Origin: Stigmatella erecta | GTDB lineage: Bacteria > Myxococcota > Myxococcia > Myxococcales > Myxococcaceae | Assembly (NCBI RefSeq): GCF_900111745.1 | Contig: NZ_FOIJ01000022.1 | Coordinates: forward strand, 62,001-126,000 | Length of the DNA stretch: 64,000 nucleotides | Direction: 5' to 3' | Part shown: in pieces, positions 3,439 to 10,196 of the stretch | Position numbering within the stretch: position 1 is the first letter of the stretch | Layout: each line of letters starts with the position of its first letter | The notes under the pieces: generated by a model | Seen by the model: only the letters and a program-made list of their open reading frames with translations | The model's database searches: none | What the model was told of the DNA's origin: nothing | Translations under genes and position numbers: made by a program

Positions 3439-4569
3439 GTGAGCACCTACTCCGTTCGCAGCGGCGACACGCTGTCCGGCATCGCCCAGAAGTACAACAC
3501 CACGGTCAGCAAGCTCGCCCAGGACAACGGCATCCGCAACCCGAACCTCATCCAGACGGGCATGAAGCTGAACGTGTCCGGCAGCGCCAGCGCGGCCCGG
3601 CCCGCGGCGGCCTCCTCCCAGCAGTACACGGTGCGCTCGGGCGACACCCTGAGCGGCATTGCCCAGCGGTTCGGCACCACCACGGGCGCGCTGGCCAAGG
3701 CCAACAACATCAGCAACCCCAACCGCATCTACGCCGGGCAGAAGCTCACCATCCCGGGCGCGGGCGGGGCCAAGCCCACCCCGGCGCCGGCGCCCTCCTC
3801 TCAGCAGTACACGGTGCGCTCGGGCGACACCCTGAGCGGCATTGCCCAGCGCTACGGCACCACCGCGGGCGCGCTGGCCAAGGCCAACAACATCAGCAAC
3901 CCCAACCTCATCCAGGTCGGGCAGAAGCTCACCATCCCGGGGGGAGCCCGGCCCGGCCCCCAGGACGGTTTCGATCCGCCGGCCACCGGCGGCAAGCCCC
4001 CCACGGGGCCCGTCACCGGCCCCAGCAACGGCGGGGACGTCAAGGGCGGCGTGTCGCTCGCGCAGCTGCGCAAGATCATGCCCAACCTGTCGCAGGCCAA
4101 GGCGGAGCAGTACCTGCCGCACCTCAACCGCGCCATGGCCGAGGCGAACATCAACACCCCCAAGCGCCAGGCCGCCTTCCTCGCGCAGCTCGCCCACGAG
4201 AGCGGCGAGTTCCGCTACATGGAGGAGATCGCCTCCGGCGCCGCCTACGAGGGCCGCAAGGACCTGGGCAACACGCAGCCGGGTGACGGCGTGCGCTTCA
4301 AGGGCCGTGGCCCCATCCAGCTCACCGGCCGCTCCAACTACCGCGCCGCGGGCAAGGCGCTGGGCATCGACCTGGAGAACAACCCGAAGCGCGCCGCGGA
4401 CCCGGACGTGGGCTTCCGCACCGCCGCCTGGTTCTGGAACAGCCGCAACCTCAACAGCTACGCGGACGCGGGCAACTTCCGGGAAGTCACCCGCCGCATC
4501 AACGGCGGCTACAACGGGCTCGCCAGCCGCGAGGCCTACTACCAGCGCGCCCTCGGCGTGCTGGCCTGA
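3439..4569 (+). CDS. Triple-LysM protein with GH19 chitinase-like lytic domain
   Basis: 376 residues. Three LysM repeats (about residues 3-46, 62-106 and 123-167) bind peptidoglycan or chitin glycans. A Pro/Gly-rich linker leads to a GH19-type domain (205-376) with the acid in AHESGEF (E254) and the family signature FKGRGPIQLTGRSNY (287-301). The family cleaves beta-1,4-linked GlcNAc polymers, and bacterial forms of this size often act on peptidoglycan. The GTG start is preceded by CCGGAG. There is no signal peptide: the first LysM begins at residue 3, so export must use another route, or the protein acts after lysis. A role in prey or self cell-wall lysis is inferred. Confidence 0.82.
   Translation: MSTYSVRSGDTLSGIAQKYNTTVSKLAQDNGIRNPNLIQTGMKLNVSGSASAARPAAASSQQYTVRSGDTLSGIAQRFGTTTGALAKANNISNPNRIYAGQKLTIPGAGGAKPTPAPAPSSQQYTVRSGDTLSGIAQRYGTTAGALAKANNISNPNLIQVGQKLTIPGGARPGPQDGFDPPATGGKPPTGPVTGPSNGGDVKGGVSLAQLRKIMPNLSQAKAEQYLPHLNRAMAEANINTPKRQAAFLAQLAHESGEFRYMEEIASGAAYEGRKDLGNTQPGDGVRFKGRGPIQLTGRSNYRAAGKALGIDLENNPKRAADPDVGFRTAAWFWNSRNLNSYADAGNFREVTRRINGGYNGLASREAYYQRALGVLA
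3619..3941 (+). repeat. Direct repeat encoding LysM domains 2 and 3
   Basis: Two copies of about 140 bases (3619-3758 and 3802-3941) lie 183 bases (61 codons) apart. The first 50 bases of each copy are identical and the rest differ at only a few positions. The first LysM of the gene (from 3439) is clearly more diverged, so copies 2 and 3 look like a recent in-frame duplication or a gene-converted pair. Confidence 0.9.
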
Positions 4570-4659: not shown

Positions 4660-4708
4660 CTCTCAAGTTCTTGACCGCCGCCCGTGATGCGGGAATGAGG
4701 TGCGTCTC

Positions 4709-5476
4709 ATGAACAGCGCAGCGCGAATCCGGATCGCGGGGCTCCTGGGCCTCGCCTCCGCCCTGGCTTTGGTCTTCCTGCCCGTGCCCCCCGCGCACGC
4801 CACGGACAAGACCGCCCCCACGAAAGCCCCCTCCGAGACCGTCAAGCTCCGGAAGATCGGCATCATTGGCTCCGGGAAAGTCGGCGGCAGCCTGGCCCGG
4901 CTCTGGGTCAAGGCGGGCTACGAGGTGATGATCTCCTCGCGCCACCCGGAGGAGCTCAAGTCCCTGGCGCAGCAGCTCGGCCGCAAGGCCCGCACCGGCA
5001 CCCCACGGGAGGCCGCGATGTATGGCGACGCCGTGCTCATCGCGGTGCCCTATGGGGCGCTGCCGCAGATCGGCCGCGACTACGCCAAGGAGCTCTCGGG
5101 GAAGGTCGTCCTGGATGCCGGCAACCCCTACCCCCAGCGGGACGGGCCCATGGCCGAGGAAGCGCGCCGCAAGGGGACCGGCGAAACCTCGAAGGCCCTG
5201 CTGCCCGGGGTGAAGCTCGTGCGCGCCTTCAACGCCATGAGCGCCGTGGACCTCAACAGCCAGACGGGCCGGGAGGGCCCCCTGGCCGCCATTCCCCTGG
5301 CCAGCGATGACGCACATGCCCTGAAGGCCGCGGCCGAGCTGGTCAAGGCGGCCGGCTTCGAGCCGGTCGTCGTGGGCGGCCTGGACCGGGCAAAGGACTT
5401 CGACGTGGGGACGCCGGTCTACACGCGGGTGCTGACGGCCGAGGAACTTCGCAAGCAGTTGGGCCTCCCGGACTAA
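4709..5476 (+). CDS. NADPH-dependent F420 reductase-like Rossmann protein with signal peptide
   Basis: 255 residues from ATG 4709 (GAGGTG sits 6 bases upstream; a GTG at 4700 is less well placed). Residues 1-31 form a clear Sec signal peptide ending AHA. A dinucleotide-binding motif GIIGSGKVGGSLA follows at 51-63. The later part (AVPYGALPQI, DAGNPYPQRDG, VRAFNAM) matches the NADP oxidoreductase/F420-dependent reductase (NpdG-like, YfjZ/DinB-neighbour) family, usually a cytosolic enzyme that transfers hydride to or from NADP. The export signal is unusual for a nucleotide-dependent enzyme. The substrate is unknown. Confidence 0.78.
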   Translation: MNSAARIRIAGLLGLASALALVFLPVPPAHATDKTAPTKAPSETVKLRKIGIIGSGKVGGSLARLWVKAGYEVMISSRHPEELKSLAQQLGRKARTGTPREAAMYGDAVLIAVPYGALPQIGRDYAKELSGKVVLDAGNPYPQRDGPMAEEARRKGTGETSKALLPGVKLVRAFNAMSAVDLNSQTGREGPLAAIPLASDDAHALKAAAELVKAAGFEPVVVGGLDRAKDFDVGTPVYTRVLTAEELRKQLGLPD

Positions 5477-6520: not shown

Positions 6521-8514
6521 ATCGCGGACGCCTCCCGTAGGTCCGGGGCCACCGGCGTCTGGGAGACGGGGGCACGCTCCTGGACCAGTGCGGGAGCCTG
6601 CCCCGGCGTGTAGGGCTGGTTGGCGCGCGGCGGCGGTGAGACGGCATCCTGTGCCTTCAGGTCGAAGTACTTCTGGATGACGGCCATGCCCGTGGGCGCC
6701 GCATCCAAGCCGCCGAGCCCGCCGTGCTCGTTGAGCACCACCACGGCGATCTCGGGGGCCTCCGCGGGCGCGAAGGACGCCAGCCAGGCGTGGTGCCGCG
6801 AGAAGAACTCCATCTGGTGCGTCTTGAGCCGCACCGCGCCCAGCGTGACGACCTGGGCGGTGCCCGTCTTGCCGGCCACCTTGATGTCCGGCAGGCGCTG
6901 GCGGTACGCGGTGCCGCCCGGCTCGTTCACCACCGCCATCAGCGCCTCGACGACCGCCTTGAGGTGCGCCGGGTTGATGTCCACCTTGCGCACCACCTGC
7001 GGCTGGAAGGCCTCGATGACGCGGCCATCCAGATCCTCGATGCGCTGCACCAGCTGCGGCTTGTACAGCGTGCCGCCGTTGGCCAGGGAGGCGTACACGA
7101 GCGCCAGCTGCAGCGGCGTCACGTTGTCATCGCCCTGGCCGACCGAGCTGTTGAGCGCCATGCCCTTGGAGTAGCCGCCCGGCGAGAGCCGGTCATGGTA
7201 GGCCGTGCTGGGCATGATGCCCGGCACCTCGGCCAAAACCCCAATCCCGGTGGGGCTGCCCAGGCCCAGGGCCTTGCCCATGTCCGCGATGGGGTCCAGG
7301 CCCAGGGTGTCGGCGACCTTGTAGAACCAGGTGTTGCACGAGTACTGCATCGCCAGCAGGCCATTCACCGGGCCGTGGCCGCTGTCCTTGTGGCAGCGCC
7401 AGGTATGGCCTCCGAGGGTGTAGCCGCCGGGACAGTTCACCACCGTCTCCGGCCGGAAGAGGCCCGACTTGTAGGCGGCCAGCGCCGAGACGACCTTGAA
7501 GGTGGAACCGGGGCTGTAGTGGTTGGCCGCCACGCGGTTGATCATCGGCTGGAGCGGATCCTTGGCCAGCGCCGCCATCTGCGCCGGGGTGATGCGGCCG
7601 GTGAGCAGGTTGGGATCAAAGCCCGGCCGGGACACCAGCGCGCGGATGAAGCCGGTGTTCACGTCGATGGCCACCACCGCGCCCGCCACGCCCGGGAAGG
7701 CCTGCTCGGCCGCCTCCTGCAGCCGCATGTCGAGCGAGAGCACGACGTTGCCGCCGGCCTGCGGTGGCAACACCGAGTTCTCCCCGAGCATGTCGTTCAG
7801 CTCCTCGATGGTCTGGCCGCGCGCGTTCACCACCTGCTTGCGCACCCCGTCCACGCCGCGCAGCCGCGACTCGAAGTAGCGCTCCAGGCCGCGGCGGCCG
7901 ATGTAGTCGCCCAGCGCGTACCGGGCGCCGTCGGCGTTGAGCCGCTCCAGCTCGTCCTGGTTGATCTCGTTCATGTAGCCGAGCACGTGCGAGAGCACCG
8001 TGCCGGCGCGGTAGTTGCGGTGCGGCACTGGCACCACCTCCACACCATCCAGGATGTCGAGCCGGGCATTGAGCCGGTCCAGCTCGTCGCGCGTCAGGTC
8101 CACACGGATGGAGAGCGGCTGGAACGGCGCGCTGCGGCGGGCGGCGCGGACCTGGTCCTCCACCTTCTGGCGCTGCTCGGCCTCCAGCGCGAGCAGCCCG
8201 GCCAGCCGGGGGATGACCTGCTCGAAGCAGTTCGTACAGAAGGCCGGGGTGAGGAACACATCGAACGAGGGCCGGCTGTCCACCAGGATGGTGCCCCGCA
8301 CGTCCTTGATGACGCCACGGTCGGCGCGGAGGCGGACCTCCTTGACGAAGTTGGCCACGCTCTTGGCGGCGTACTCCTCGCCACGGATGAGCTGGAGCCG
8401 GTAGAGCTGCATGGCCAGCAGCACCATGCCGCCCACCATCGCCAACCCCAGGAACAGGAAGCGCCGTTTGAGTTCTCTGCCCGGAGGCGTGTTTCCCAGG
8501 GTCGGGGGTGCCAT
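6514..8514 (-). CDS. mrdA: Penicillin-binding protein 2 (peptidoglycan DD-transpeptidase)
   Basis: 666 residues. A short cytoplasmic end and one membrane helix (about 18-38) precede the PBP dimerisation region and the transpeptidase domain. The three active-site motifs are present: STFK (337-340, catalytic Ser337), SCN (392-394) and KTG (548-550). This is the class B elongation enzyme that cross-links peptidoglycan with RodA. The length is normal. Neighbours are not other elongasome genes, so it stands alone here. The start is divergent from the zinc-ribbon/SDR gene. Confidence 0.93.
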   Translation of the reverse strand: MAPPTLGNTPPGRELKRRFLFLGLAMVGGMVLLAMQLYRLQLIRGEEYAAKSVANFVKEVRLRADRGVIKDVRGTILVDSRPSFDVFLTPAFCTNCFEQVIPRLAGLLALEAEQRQKVEDQVRAARRSAPFQPLSIRVDLTRDELDRLNARLDILDGVEVVPVPHRNYRAGTVLSHVLGYMNEINQDELERLNADGARYALGDYIGRRGLERYFESRLRGVDGVRKQVVNARGQTIEELNDMLGENSVLPPQAGGNVVLSLDMRLQEAAEQAFPGVAGAVVAIDVNTGFIRALVSRPGFDPNLLTGRITPAQMAALAKDPLQPMINRVAANHYSPGSTFKVVSALAAYKSGLFRPETVVNCPGGYTLGGHTWRCHKDSGHGPVNGLLAMQYSCNTWFYKVADTLGLDPIADMGKALGLGSPTGIGVLAEVPGIMPSTAYHDRLSPGGYSKGMALNSSVGQGDDNVTPLQLALVYASLANGGTLYKPQLVQRIEDLDGRVIEAFQPQVVRKVDINPAHLKAVVEALMAVVNEPGGTAYRQRLPDIKVAGKTGTAQVVTLGAVRLKTHQMEFFSRHHAWLASFAPAEAPEIAVVVLNEHGGLGGLDAAPTGMAVIQKYFDLKAQDAVSPPPRANQPYTPGQAPALVQERAPVSQTPVAPDLREASAIH

Positions 8515-8609
8515 CGTCAGTCCCCCTCCAGCCTACCACCGTGAGGGGGCGAGGCCAGCCCCCCCACCGTGCAGCCAAGCCGGCTTTCCAGAGGAGCCAG
8601 CCTCGGGCT

Positions 8610-10196
8610 ATGCACGGAACCGCGATGAGCACCTTCGATACTCTCCCTGTCCCTGCCCCTGTCTCTGATTCTCCGCCGCCCCCCGCCCTCGAGCTGGAAG
8701 AGGTGCGCCGCTGCGCACAGCTCCTGGAGGCCATCGTGGCGGACCGCCGGCTCCTGCTCCGGCTTCCCGAGCCGGACCGGATTGCCCTGCTCAGCGCCGC
8801 GGGCAAGGTCGTCCTTCCCGAGCGCGACGTCCGGGCACGCCTCGTCAAGTCGCTGCGCAAGGAGGAGAAGCAGGTCAAACGCAAGAAGGACCAGCTCGTC
8901 CGGGCCTCGACCAGAATCCGCACCCTGCGCCAGGCACCGGTCTTCCAGGCCCCCCCGCCGCTGCTTCCCAGCGAGAACCCGGGACCGGAGCAACTGCTGG
9001 AGAACCCCCGCCACTGCTACGTGTGCAAGGAGGAGTTCCGGCGCGTTCACTTCTTCTACGACGCGATGTGCCCGCCGTGCGCCGACTTCAACTACGCCAA
9101 GCGCTTCCAGACGGCCCCGCTGGACGGCCAGGTGGCGCTCATCACCGGGGCACGGGTGAAGATTGGCTTTCAGGCCTCGCTGATGCTGCTGCGCGCCGGG
9201 GCCCGGGTCATCGCCACCACGCGCTTTCCGAACGACGCCGCCGAGCGCTATGCCCGGGAGCCGGACTTCTCCGATTGGGGCCACCGCCTGCACGTCCACG
9301 GGCTGGACCTGCGGCACGCGCCCAGCGTCGAGCTGTTCGCGCGCTACATGGACCAGACGTATGACCGCCTGGACATCCTGATCAACAACGCGGCCCAGAC
9401 CGTCCGCCGGCCGCCGGGCTTCTATGCCCACCTGCTCGCCAAGGAGCTGCTGCCCGTGAGCGCCCTGCCCCAGGGGTGCGCCCCGCTGCTCGCGGAGCAC
9501 CTGCAATGCCTGGCGAGGGTTCAGCCCGCCCTGGAAGCCGGGAACCCGGGCACCGCCATCACCTGGAGCAGCGCGGACCCGGCGCTCGGCCTGCACTCCT
9601 CGGCGGCCCTGTCGCTGGTGCCCTATGCCCTCGAGCAGGAGGGGGACACGCAGCGGCTCTTCCCCGAGGGCCGGCTGGATGCGGACCTGCAACAGGTCGA
9701 CCTGCGCGAGGTGAACTCGTGGCGGCTGCGGCTGGCGGAGGTGGCGACCGCCGAGATGCTGGAGGTGCACCTGGTGAACGCGGTGGCCCCCTTCATCCTC
9801 TGCGGCAAGCTCAAGCCGCTGATGCTGCGCAACCGCTCCCGCATGGGCCACATCGTGAACGTGTCGGCGATGGAGGGCAGCTTCTCGCGGGGAAAGAAGA
9901 CGGACAAGCACCCCCACACCAACATGGCCAAGGCGGCGCTGAACATGATGACGCTCACCTCCGCGGGCGACTACGCGCGGGACGGCATCTTCATGAACGC
10001 CGTGGACACCGGCTGGGTCACGGACGAGGACCCCATCCTCCACGCCCAGCGCAAGCAGGAGGAGTTCGACTTCCACCCGCCGCTGGACATCGTGGACGGG
10101 GCCGCCCGCGTGGTGGACCCCGTCTTCATGGCCGTCAACTCGGGCCACGGCGCCTGGGGCAACTTCTTCAAGGACTACCGCCACACCGCGTGGTGA
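8610..10196 (+). CDS. Zinc-ribbon protein with short-chain dehydrogenase/reductase domain lacking the catalytic Tyr
   Basis: 528 residues from ATG 8610 (GAGGAG 14 bases upstream); ATG 8625 is an alternative. Residues 60-108 are highly charged and helical. A CxxC-x14-CxxC element (C136, C139, C154, C157) looks like a zinc ribbon. The SDR domain starts at about 172: TGARVKIG (179-186) is the nucleotide loop, NNAAQ (259-263) the NNAG motif, and NVSA (417-420) carries the catalytic Ser. The usual YxxxK is TNMAK (437-441), so Tyr is replaced by Thr. About 110 residues (268-380) are inserted relative to classical SDRs. NAD(P) binding is likely; classical dehydrogenase chemistry is doubtful. Confidence 0.75.
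   Translation: MHGTAMSTFDTLPVPAPVSDSPPPPALELEEVRRCAQLLEAIVADRRLLLRLPEPDRIALLSAAGKVVLPERDVRARLVKSLRKEEKQVKRKKDQLVRASTRIRTLRQAPVFQAPPPLLPSENPGPEQLLENPRHCYVCKEEFRRVHFFYDAMCPPCADFNYAKRFQTAPLDGQVALITGARVKIGFQASLMLLRAGARVIATTRFPNDAAERYAREPDFSDWGHRLHVHGLDLRHAPSVELFARYMDQTYDRLDILINNAAQTVRRPPGFYAHLLAKELLPVSALPQGCAPLLAEHLQCLARVQPALEAGNPGTAITWSSADPALGLHSSAALSLVPYALEQEGDTQRLFPEGRLDADLQQVDLREVNSWRLRLAEVATAEMLEVHLVNAVAPFILCGKLKPLMLRNRSRMGHIVNVSAMEGSFSRGKKTDKHPHTNMAKAALNMMTLTSAGDYARDGIFMNAVDTGWVTDEDPILHAQRKQEEFDFHPPLDIVDGAARVVDPVFMAVNSGHGAWGNFFKDYRHTAW

Follow-up and report, generated by a model that had tools for sequence, protein, structure and literature searches.

SDRs form a very large group of enzymes, and a gene on the forward strand of the window (the whole 64,000-nucleotide stretch of Stigmatella erecta DNA analyzed here) raises the question of what an SDR-like protein does once the catalytic Tyr and Ser have both been replaced. 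Annotation names such proteins SDR oxidoreductases despite the absence of the two residues; the records for the family members from Deinococcus and Tsukamurella are annotated 'SDR family NAD(P)-dependent oxidoreductase'. The alternative residue set is fixed in the family described below and provides a clean test of Tyr-free chemistry or sensing on the SDR fold. The answer would be widely applicable because the family is common: relatives were found in 103 of the 195 genomes searched in the host phylum at E 1e-50, with the own genome counted. The reading we prefer, at a probability of roughly 55%, is an NADP(H)-binding enzyme with a classical SDR fold and a rebuilt active site that is free of the Ser/Tyr pair.

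The gene and its family

The open reading frame spans positions 8508–10196 of the window (+ strand), and translation from the ATG at 8610 gives 528 residues; the ATG at 8625 is an alternative start codon. Above the Pfam cut-offs, adh_short (E 1.1e-19) and adh_short_C2 stood alone, each in two stretches, and no NmrA model was present among the three Pfam matches up to E 10. The best 25 of the 176 matched NCBIfam families were all below their curated cut-offs (best 68.8 bits vs. 303). The mapped parts are listed here.

8610–10196, +: whole gene, 528 residues; Pfam adh_short at E 1.1e-19 in two stretches, the best over residues 174–265
8676–8996, +: N-terminal helical region (residues 23–129) of the AlphaFold2 models; least conserved part
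8997–9113, +: putative zinc element (residues 130–168), C136-x2-C139-x14-C154-x2-C157
9144–9167, +: altered cofactor loop T179-GARVKI-G186; R182 and K184 in 148/148
9216–9236, +: end of strand beta2, TTRFPND (residues 203–209); R205 in 148/148
9384–9413, +: NNAAQTVRRP (residues 259–268), from sequence and alignment
9414–9749, +: insert region (residues 269–380) from beta4 to the Asn helix, with the conserved end DADLQQVDLRxxNSW
9777–9779, +: N390, the Asn of the SDR tetrad; 149/149, controls 34/40
9867–9869, +: A420 at the catalytic Ser position by the 9kd1 alignment; Ala 146, Ser 3 of 149
9873–9875, +: E422, family-specific; 149/149, controls 0/40
9909–9932, +: H434-P-H-T437-N-M-A-K441, Thr in place of the catalytic Tyr; H434, H436, T437, N438 and K441 in 149/149
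10005–10034, +: beta6 loop D466-TGWVTDED-P475; D466 and W469 in 149/149
10086–10109, +: D493-IVDGAA-R500; D493, D496 and R500 each in 149/149

The merged family set contains 149 distinct sequences, the window protein among them, with a minimum identity to the window protein of 39% and a median of 59%. It draws on three overlapping sources, namely whole-protein or profile searches (77 sequences), a pattern scan (78) and plasmids (four). The scan patterns included DKHPHTNM, and the pattern-scan loci are therefore biased towards T437; the 77 whole-protein/profile sequences were not picked by pattern, but they were selected at E 1e-50 or 1e-60. In the species-genome collection, 361 of 374 pattern-matched stretches encode a relative. 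Eighty loci (L039–L118) were kept out of these 361, and 60 of the 80 constitute alignment A1, from which L085 and 19 others, mostly near-duplicates, were left out. The control consists of 40 SDRs of the same genome, ranked 9–48 of 85 matches; the top eight (L001–L008) and 37 weaker rows, including the window protein's own two, lie outside it.

Judged by record titles, which serve as the phylum labels and in many cases belong to metagenome bins, the family occurs in Myxococcota, Elusimicrobiota, Bdellovibrionota, Planctomycetota, Sericytochromatia, Actinomycetota and Deinococcota. One carrier is a strain of M. xanthus (L045). Searches at E 1e-60, each counting the starting bin, found it in 10 of 292 genomes in the phylum of a Sericytochromatia-titled bin, 39 of 294 in that of a Planctomycetota-titled bin and 13 of 149 in that of an Elusimicrobiota-titled bin. 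Four of 72,556 plasmid records carry a member at E 1e-20 (two from Streptomyces, one each from Tsukamurella and Deinococcus), and no match was found at E 1e-10 in 50,697 phage records. When the threshold for the 292 genomes was loosened from 1e-60 to 1e-12, with at most five candidates scored per genome, a single genome was added to the 10, and the next match in the own genome after the protein itself had an E value of 1e-5. For these two reasons, the family looks sharply separated from ordinary SDRs in the genomes searched. A description of the family was not found in the open-licence library searched, including by a search with six family motifs.

A quick tree of 108 rows (midpoint rooting, quick support only) places the window protein within a supported group of 32 rows, most of them myxobacterial, and unites eight divergent myxobacterial paralogues in one supported branch. 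The six groups require 10 label changes where the minimum is five, and therefore some transfer, paralogy or mis-binning in the family history is likely. Eight Myxococcaceae genomes (L133–L140) carry a divergent member, 41–48% identical, in which HPHTNMAK is kept and the insert start FYxHL is changed; in G088, G100, G115, G122 and G132, a divergent member accompanies a main copy. A record titled Comamonas sp. KCTC 72670 (L041), whose copy lies deep within the Myxococcaceae clade, is probably a mislabelled or contaminated genome. On a 12.4-kb contig of a Sericytochromatia bin (L175), two family copies are encoded on one strand with a spacing of about 2.3 kb; the interval contains a frame that by eye resembles a HAD-type hydrolase and one further frame.

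The former Ser/Tyr site

The first-pass annotation had read the YxxxK motif as TNMAK with T437 in place of Tyr. The segment indeed reads HPHT437NMAK, and alignment gave Thr at this position in 149 of 149 distinct sequences, so that no family sequence examined retains the Tyr. One further distant member also has Thr, with HVHTNAAK instead of HPHTNMAK. By source, Thr and Lys are present in 77/77 of the whole-protein/profile set, where position 420 is Ala in 74 and Ser in three, and the pattern-scan (78/78) and plasmid (4/4) sequences all have Thr, Lys and Ala. All four Thr codons occur at T437 across the family; it is therefore the residue that is conserved, not the DNA. In the alignments with 9kd1, 4u8g and the controls, Tyr falls on T437, four residues before the kept Lys. 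In those with 3rkr, it is matched to H436 or to the position ahead of it, and the helix is broken by a gap; T437 was taken as the Tyr position because YxxxK sets the spacing to the Lys.

The catalytic Ser had been described as kept, but the residue in question, S419, precedes the catalytic position by one, and that position is A420. The column contains 146 Ala and three Ser among the 149 members, and the corresponding column in the 40 control SDRs contains 31 Ser and three Thr. In the 9kd1 profile alignment, the only Ser of the pair sits under A420 and not under S419, while the 3rkr alignment has Ser under both. The structure 4u8g has Ala at the catalytic Ser position, yet its Tyr is retained. 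Among the controls, Tyr is retained in 33 of 40 and absent in seven, and four of the 40 are without Tyr and also without Ser/Thr. As read from the aligned sequences, the double loss is sporadic in single genes elsewhere and is the rule across a whole family here. Ser at position 420 was observed in only three of the 149 members (L150/L218, L151/L219 and L158/L225).

An ordinary SDR whose acid/base function is taken over by another Tyr would also be compatible with Thr at 437, and two residues come into question: Y272 at the insert start (130/148) and Y523 (Tyr in 144/149, Phe in the other five). Neither is universal, and the Y272 region is altered in the second myxobacterial paralogues. A count over residues 130–528 gave ten Tyr, none of them universal in the SDR domain, and we consider a substitute Tyr very unlikely. 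Because no Tyr is kept at position 437 in the family sequences examined and no other Tyr is universal in the SDR domain, Ser/Tyr-dependent dehydrogenation is itself unlikely.

The loss of Ser and Tyr could alternatively mark a degenerate SDR whose function is being lost. This explanation has hardly any probability left in view of the region around the two positions, which is hyperconserved, and of T437, which is fixed down to 39% identity and encoded by four codons. In A1, 30 of the 56 columns of residues 420–475 are invariant, with 8/17 in the loop before T437, 11/20 in the T437 helix and 11/19 in the strand-6 segment; the values are 7/107 for the N-terminus and 9/97 for the insert. The most strongly conserved segments are those that, as placed by alignment, border the substrate site of classical SDRs. 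Specifically, E422, H434, H436, T437, N438, D466 and W469 are each present in 149/149, while E422, T437, N438 and D466 occur in 0/40 controls, H434 in 3/40 and H436 in 2/40. The residues present in at least 98% of the family and in at most five of the 40 controls include R182, K184, Q263, T264, N369, W371, E422, H434, H436, T437, N438, N445, D466, W469, D496 and R500. Because family-specific residues are unchanging in the same region, the Ser/Tyr region gives the impression of having been rebuilt and not of having decayed, and the fixed residue set is more in keeping with a different chemistry or a dedicated sensor than with enzyme decay.

Cofactor side and relation to known SDRs

The AlphaFold2 model from a 61-sequence alignment has a mean pLDDT of 80.5, and the loop of residues 425–431 before T437 falls below 50. 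The best 50 solved structures listed against it are SDR-type oxidoreductases by title, several of them NADP(H) complexes, and superpose on residues ~160–528 with Z scores of 21.4–23.2 over 218–242 residues at an rmsd of mostly 2.3–3.2. A classical SDR fold is thus predicted. The NNAAQ motif noted in the first-pass annotation was found at residues 259–263. The cofactor loop, also thought to be kept, is altered: TGxxxGxG reads TGARVKIG, and the middle Gly is K184 (148/148), a position with Gly in 37 of 40 controls. R182 in the same loop is invariant in the family and occurs in 0/40 controls. The tetrad residues N390 and K441 are each present in 149/149, N260 is invariant and D233 is found in 147/148. 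Residue 204 is Thr in 138 and Ser in 10 of 148 sequences and is never acidic. A residue of the R205 type without a preceding acid is the pattern of NADP(H) users, and R205 without an acidic residue at 204 therefore suggests NADP(H) as the cofactor.

The His and acidic residues that are invariant close to where the active site used to be, together with the altered GxxxGxG loop, would also suit a non-redox enzyme (for example, a lyase, dehydratase, isomerase or hydrolase) that is built on an SDR scaffold, binds NADP(H) or another nucleotide-like ligand and uses the E422/H434/H436/D466 group. This is rather improbable, with N260, N390 and K441 invariant, D233 at 147/148 and the sequence and structural matches listed mostly titled as oxidoreductases or uncharacterised proteins. 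As an NADP(H)-binding enzyme, the protein would accommodate the cofactor in the customary SDR cleft: K184 and R182 would lie at the pyrophosphate, R205 would sit close to the 2'-phosphate, and the nicotinamide ribose would be held by K441/N390. A polar substrate would accept or donate the hydride, and the candidates for proton handling are the invariant E422/H434/H436/T437/D466 group, water and the substrate. Such proton handling would fit reactions at a C=C or C=N bond, or at an activated carbonyl. The insert may serve as a lid or wall of the pocket, and the zinc element and helices may mediate assembly or partner binding. Several considerations count against the enzyme reading: Lys at the middle Gly could hinder cofactor binding, and a ligand-specific sensor could show identical conservation. 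The low pLDDT of loop 425–431, the deviating 3rkr register and the double loss in four of the 40 controls weigh in the same direction.

SDRs without the usual Tyr are known. The 2,4-dienoyl-CoA reductases keep the Lys and reduce C=C bonds; the window protein resembles them in the absent Tyr and the kept Lys. SimC7 is described as an SDR without the catalytic Tyr that is still an NAD(P)H-dependent ketoreductase and reduces its ketone using the substrate's own proton (PMC5812520). It differs from the window protein in its extended-type substrate domain, its retained Ser and a His at the position of the Lys; in the window protein, it is the Lys that is retained and the Ser that is lost. Eugenol synthase is described with no catalytic Tyr, a catalytic Lys and NADP(H) (PMC1991597). 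The likeness extends to the absent Tyr, the Lys in the same place and NADP(H), and the difference lies in the substrate, a plant phenolic ester.

The cofactor loop has a counterpart in the pteridine reductase PTR1, where a GlyX3ArgXGly change sets Arg on the pyrophosphate of NADP+ (PMC1618733). In both proteins, a basic residue replaces the middle Gly of GlyX3GlyXGly; the residue is Arg in PTR1 and Lys (GlyX3LysXGly) in the window protein, and the triad is Asp-Tyr-Lys in PTR1 and Ala-Thr-Lys here. By analogy, K184 would act on the NADP+ pyrophosphate in the manner of the PTR1 Arg.

The common features of SDRs are given as TGxxxGxG, YxxxK and a Rossmann fold in one account (PMC10288848). Classical members such as 4z0t, the tropinone reductases 1ae1/2ae2, 9kd1 and gluconate 5-dehydrogenase 3cxr share with the window protein the predicted fold over residues ~160–528, the NNA motif and the tetrad Asn and Lys. 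In contrast to them, the window protein has Ser replaced by Ala, Tyr by Thr and the middle Gly by Lys, and it adds an insert of ~105 residues, the four-Cys element and the N-terminal helices. With the predicted fold kept and both SDR motifs failed, it is a relative of the classical SDRs that is best not classified as catalytically classical. A bolder form of the preferred reading is tentative: the family may constitute phylum-spanning NADP(H) enzymes in which the Ser-Tyr pair is permanently replaced by E422/H434/H436/T437/N438/D466 together with the retained Lys and Asn. This would give the classical SDR fold a second way of catalysis, possibly for C=C, C=N or anionic substrates, with the zinc element and the insert around the site.

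Added parts, gene neighborhood and the sensor alternative

The CxxC-x14-CxxC element reported earlier is present as C136/C139/C154/C157 (bases 9015–9080), and each Cys of the two pairs is conserved in 148/148. It is a putative zinc element by its sequence pattern. The Cys-rich region of the window member had no Pfam match; in other members there were weak ones to the Rad50 zinc hook (6/61, best E 0.016) and to Zn_ribbon_8 (four members, 0.035). A profile of the region gave three matches among PDB sequences (best E 0.4). Residues 22–172 predicted alone had a pLDDT of 89.6; with this model, Foldseek returned a best E of 1.7, with rows including ribosomal zinc proteins and RING and C1 fingers, and VIA-align returned one row of 145 chains (Z 2.0). 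AlphaFold2 places helices at residues 29–44, 46–51, 54–68 and 70–99 of the N-terminal region. This helical region is absent from L218 and L219, two divergent members with Ser at 420, and is therefore dispensable for the family core.

An insert of 110 residues had been proposed; the insert is real, but its length is about 105. N260 and N390 are 130 residues apart, compared with 24–34 in 40 SDRs of the genome. The members from Deinococcus and actinobacteria have a shorter insert, and N369 and W371 in the insert region are conserved in 148/148.

The added four-Cys element with its 148/148 cysteines, the predicted N-terminal helices and the loss of Tyr in 149/149 and Ser in 146/149 could be the marks of a catalytically dead SDR that, with NADP(H) and a ligand bound, serves as a redox or metabolite sensor whose zinc element signals to a partner. 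Such a sensor would require an identical cofactor site. Against it, the tetrad Lys and Asn are invariant, and no other part of the protein is as conserved as the Ser/Tyr region.

A constant partner gene was not found in the 80 loci L039–L118, or in the 109 examined for the window's neighbors. The 80 loci, some with short flanks, contain 1844 open frames of at least 100 residues, many of them antisense shadows. The largest neighbor cluster, PAS/sensor-kinase-like by eye, reaches only 10 of the 80 loci with flanks partly incomplete, and the other 29 clusters listed cover three to seven loci each. The genes for PBP2 and a HAD hydrolase next to the window gene recur, among the 109 loci, only in L010–L012 of the same genus; the flanks of L010–L038 in this check were at most about 1.5 kb. 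A PADLOC search for defence systems gave no match. We rank the sensor second, and unlikely, because constraint is strongest on the side of the former active site and the loci compared share no recurrent partner gene. The lack of a constant partner among the loci also counts against the enzyme reading, as no gene points to a substrate or pathway. The preference for sensing or binding over dehydrogenation in the first-pass annotation is thus borne out in one half: Ser/Tyr dehydrogenation is unlikely, but Lys441, Asn390, Asp233, Asn260 and Arg205 are kept, and no constant neighbor in the loci compared suggests signalling.

Some local gene arrangements are recorded here for reference. On a Tsukamurella plasmid (L122), the family member is followed on the same strand by genes for a nucleoside hydrolase and a DUF664 protein. 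Within the window, positions 3439–4569 (+) encode a GH19 domain of the chitinase class fused to three LysM domains (Pfam), and positions 4700–5476 (+) encode an F420-dependent NADP oxidoreductase-like protein (Pfam) with an N-terminus that resembles a signal peptide by eye.
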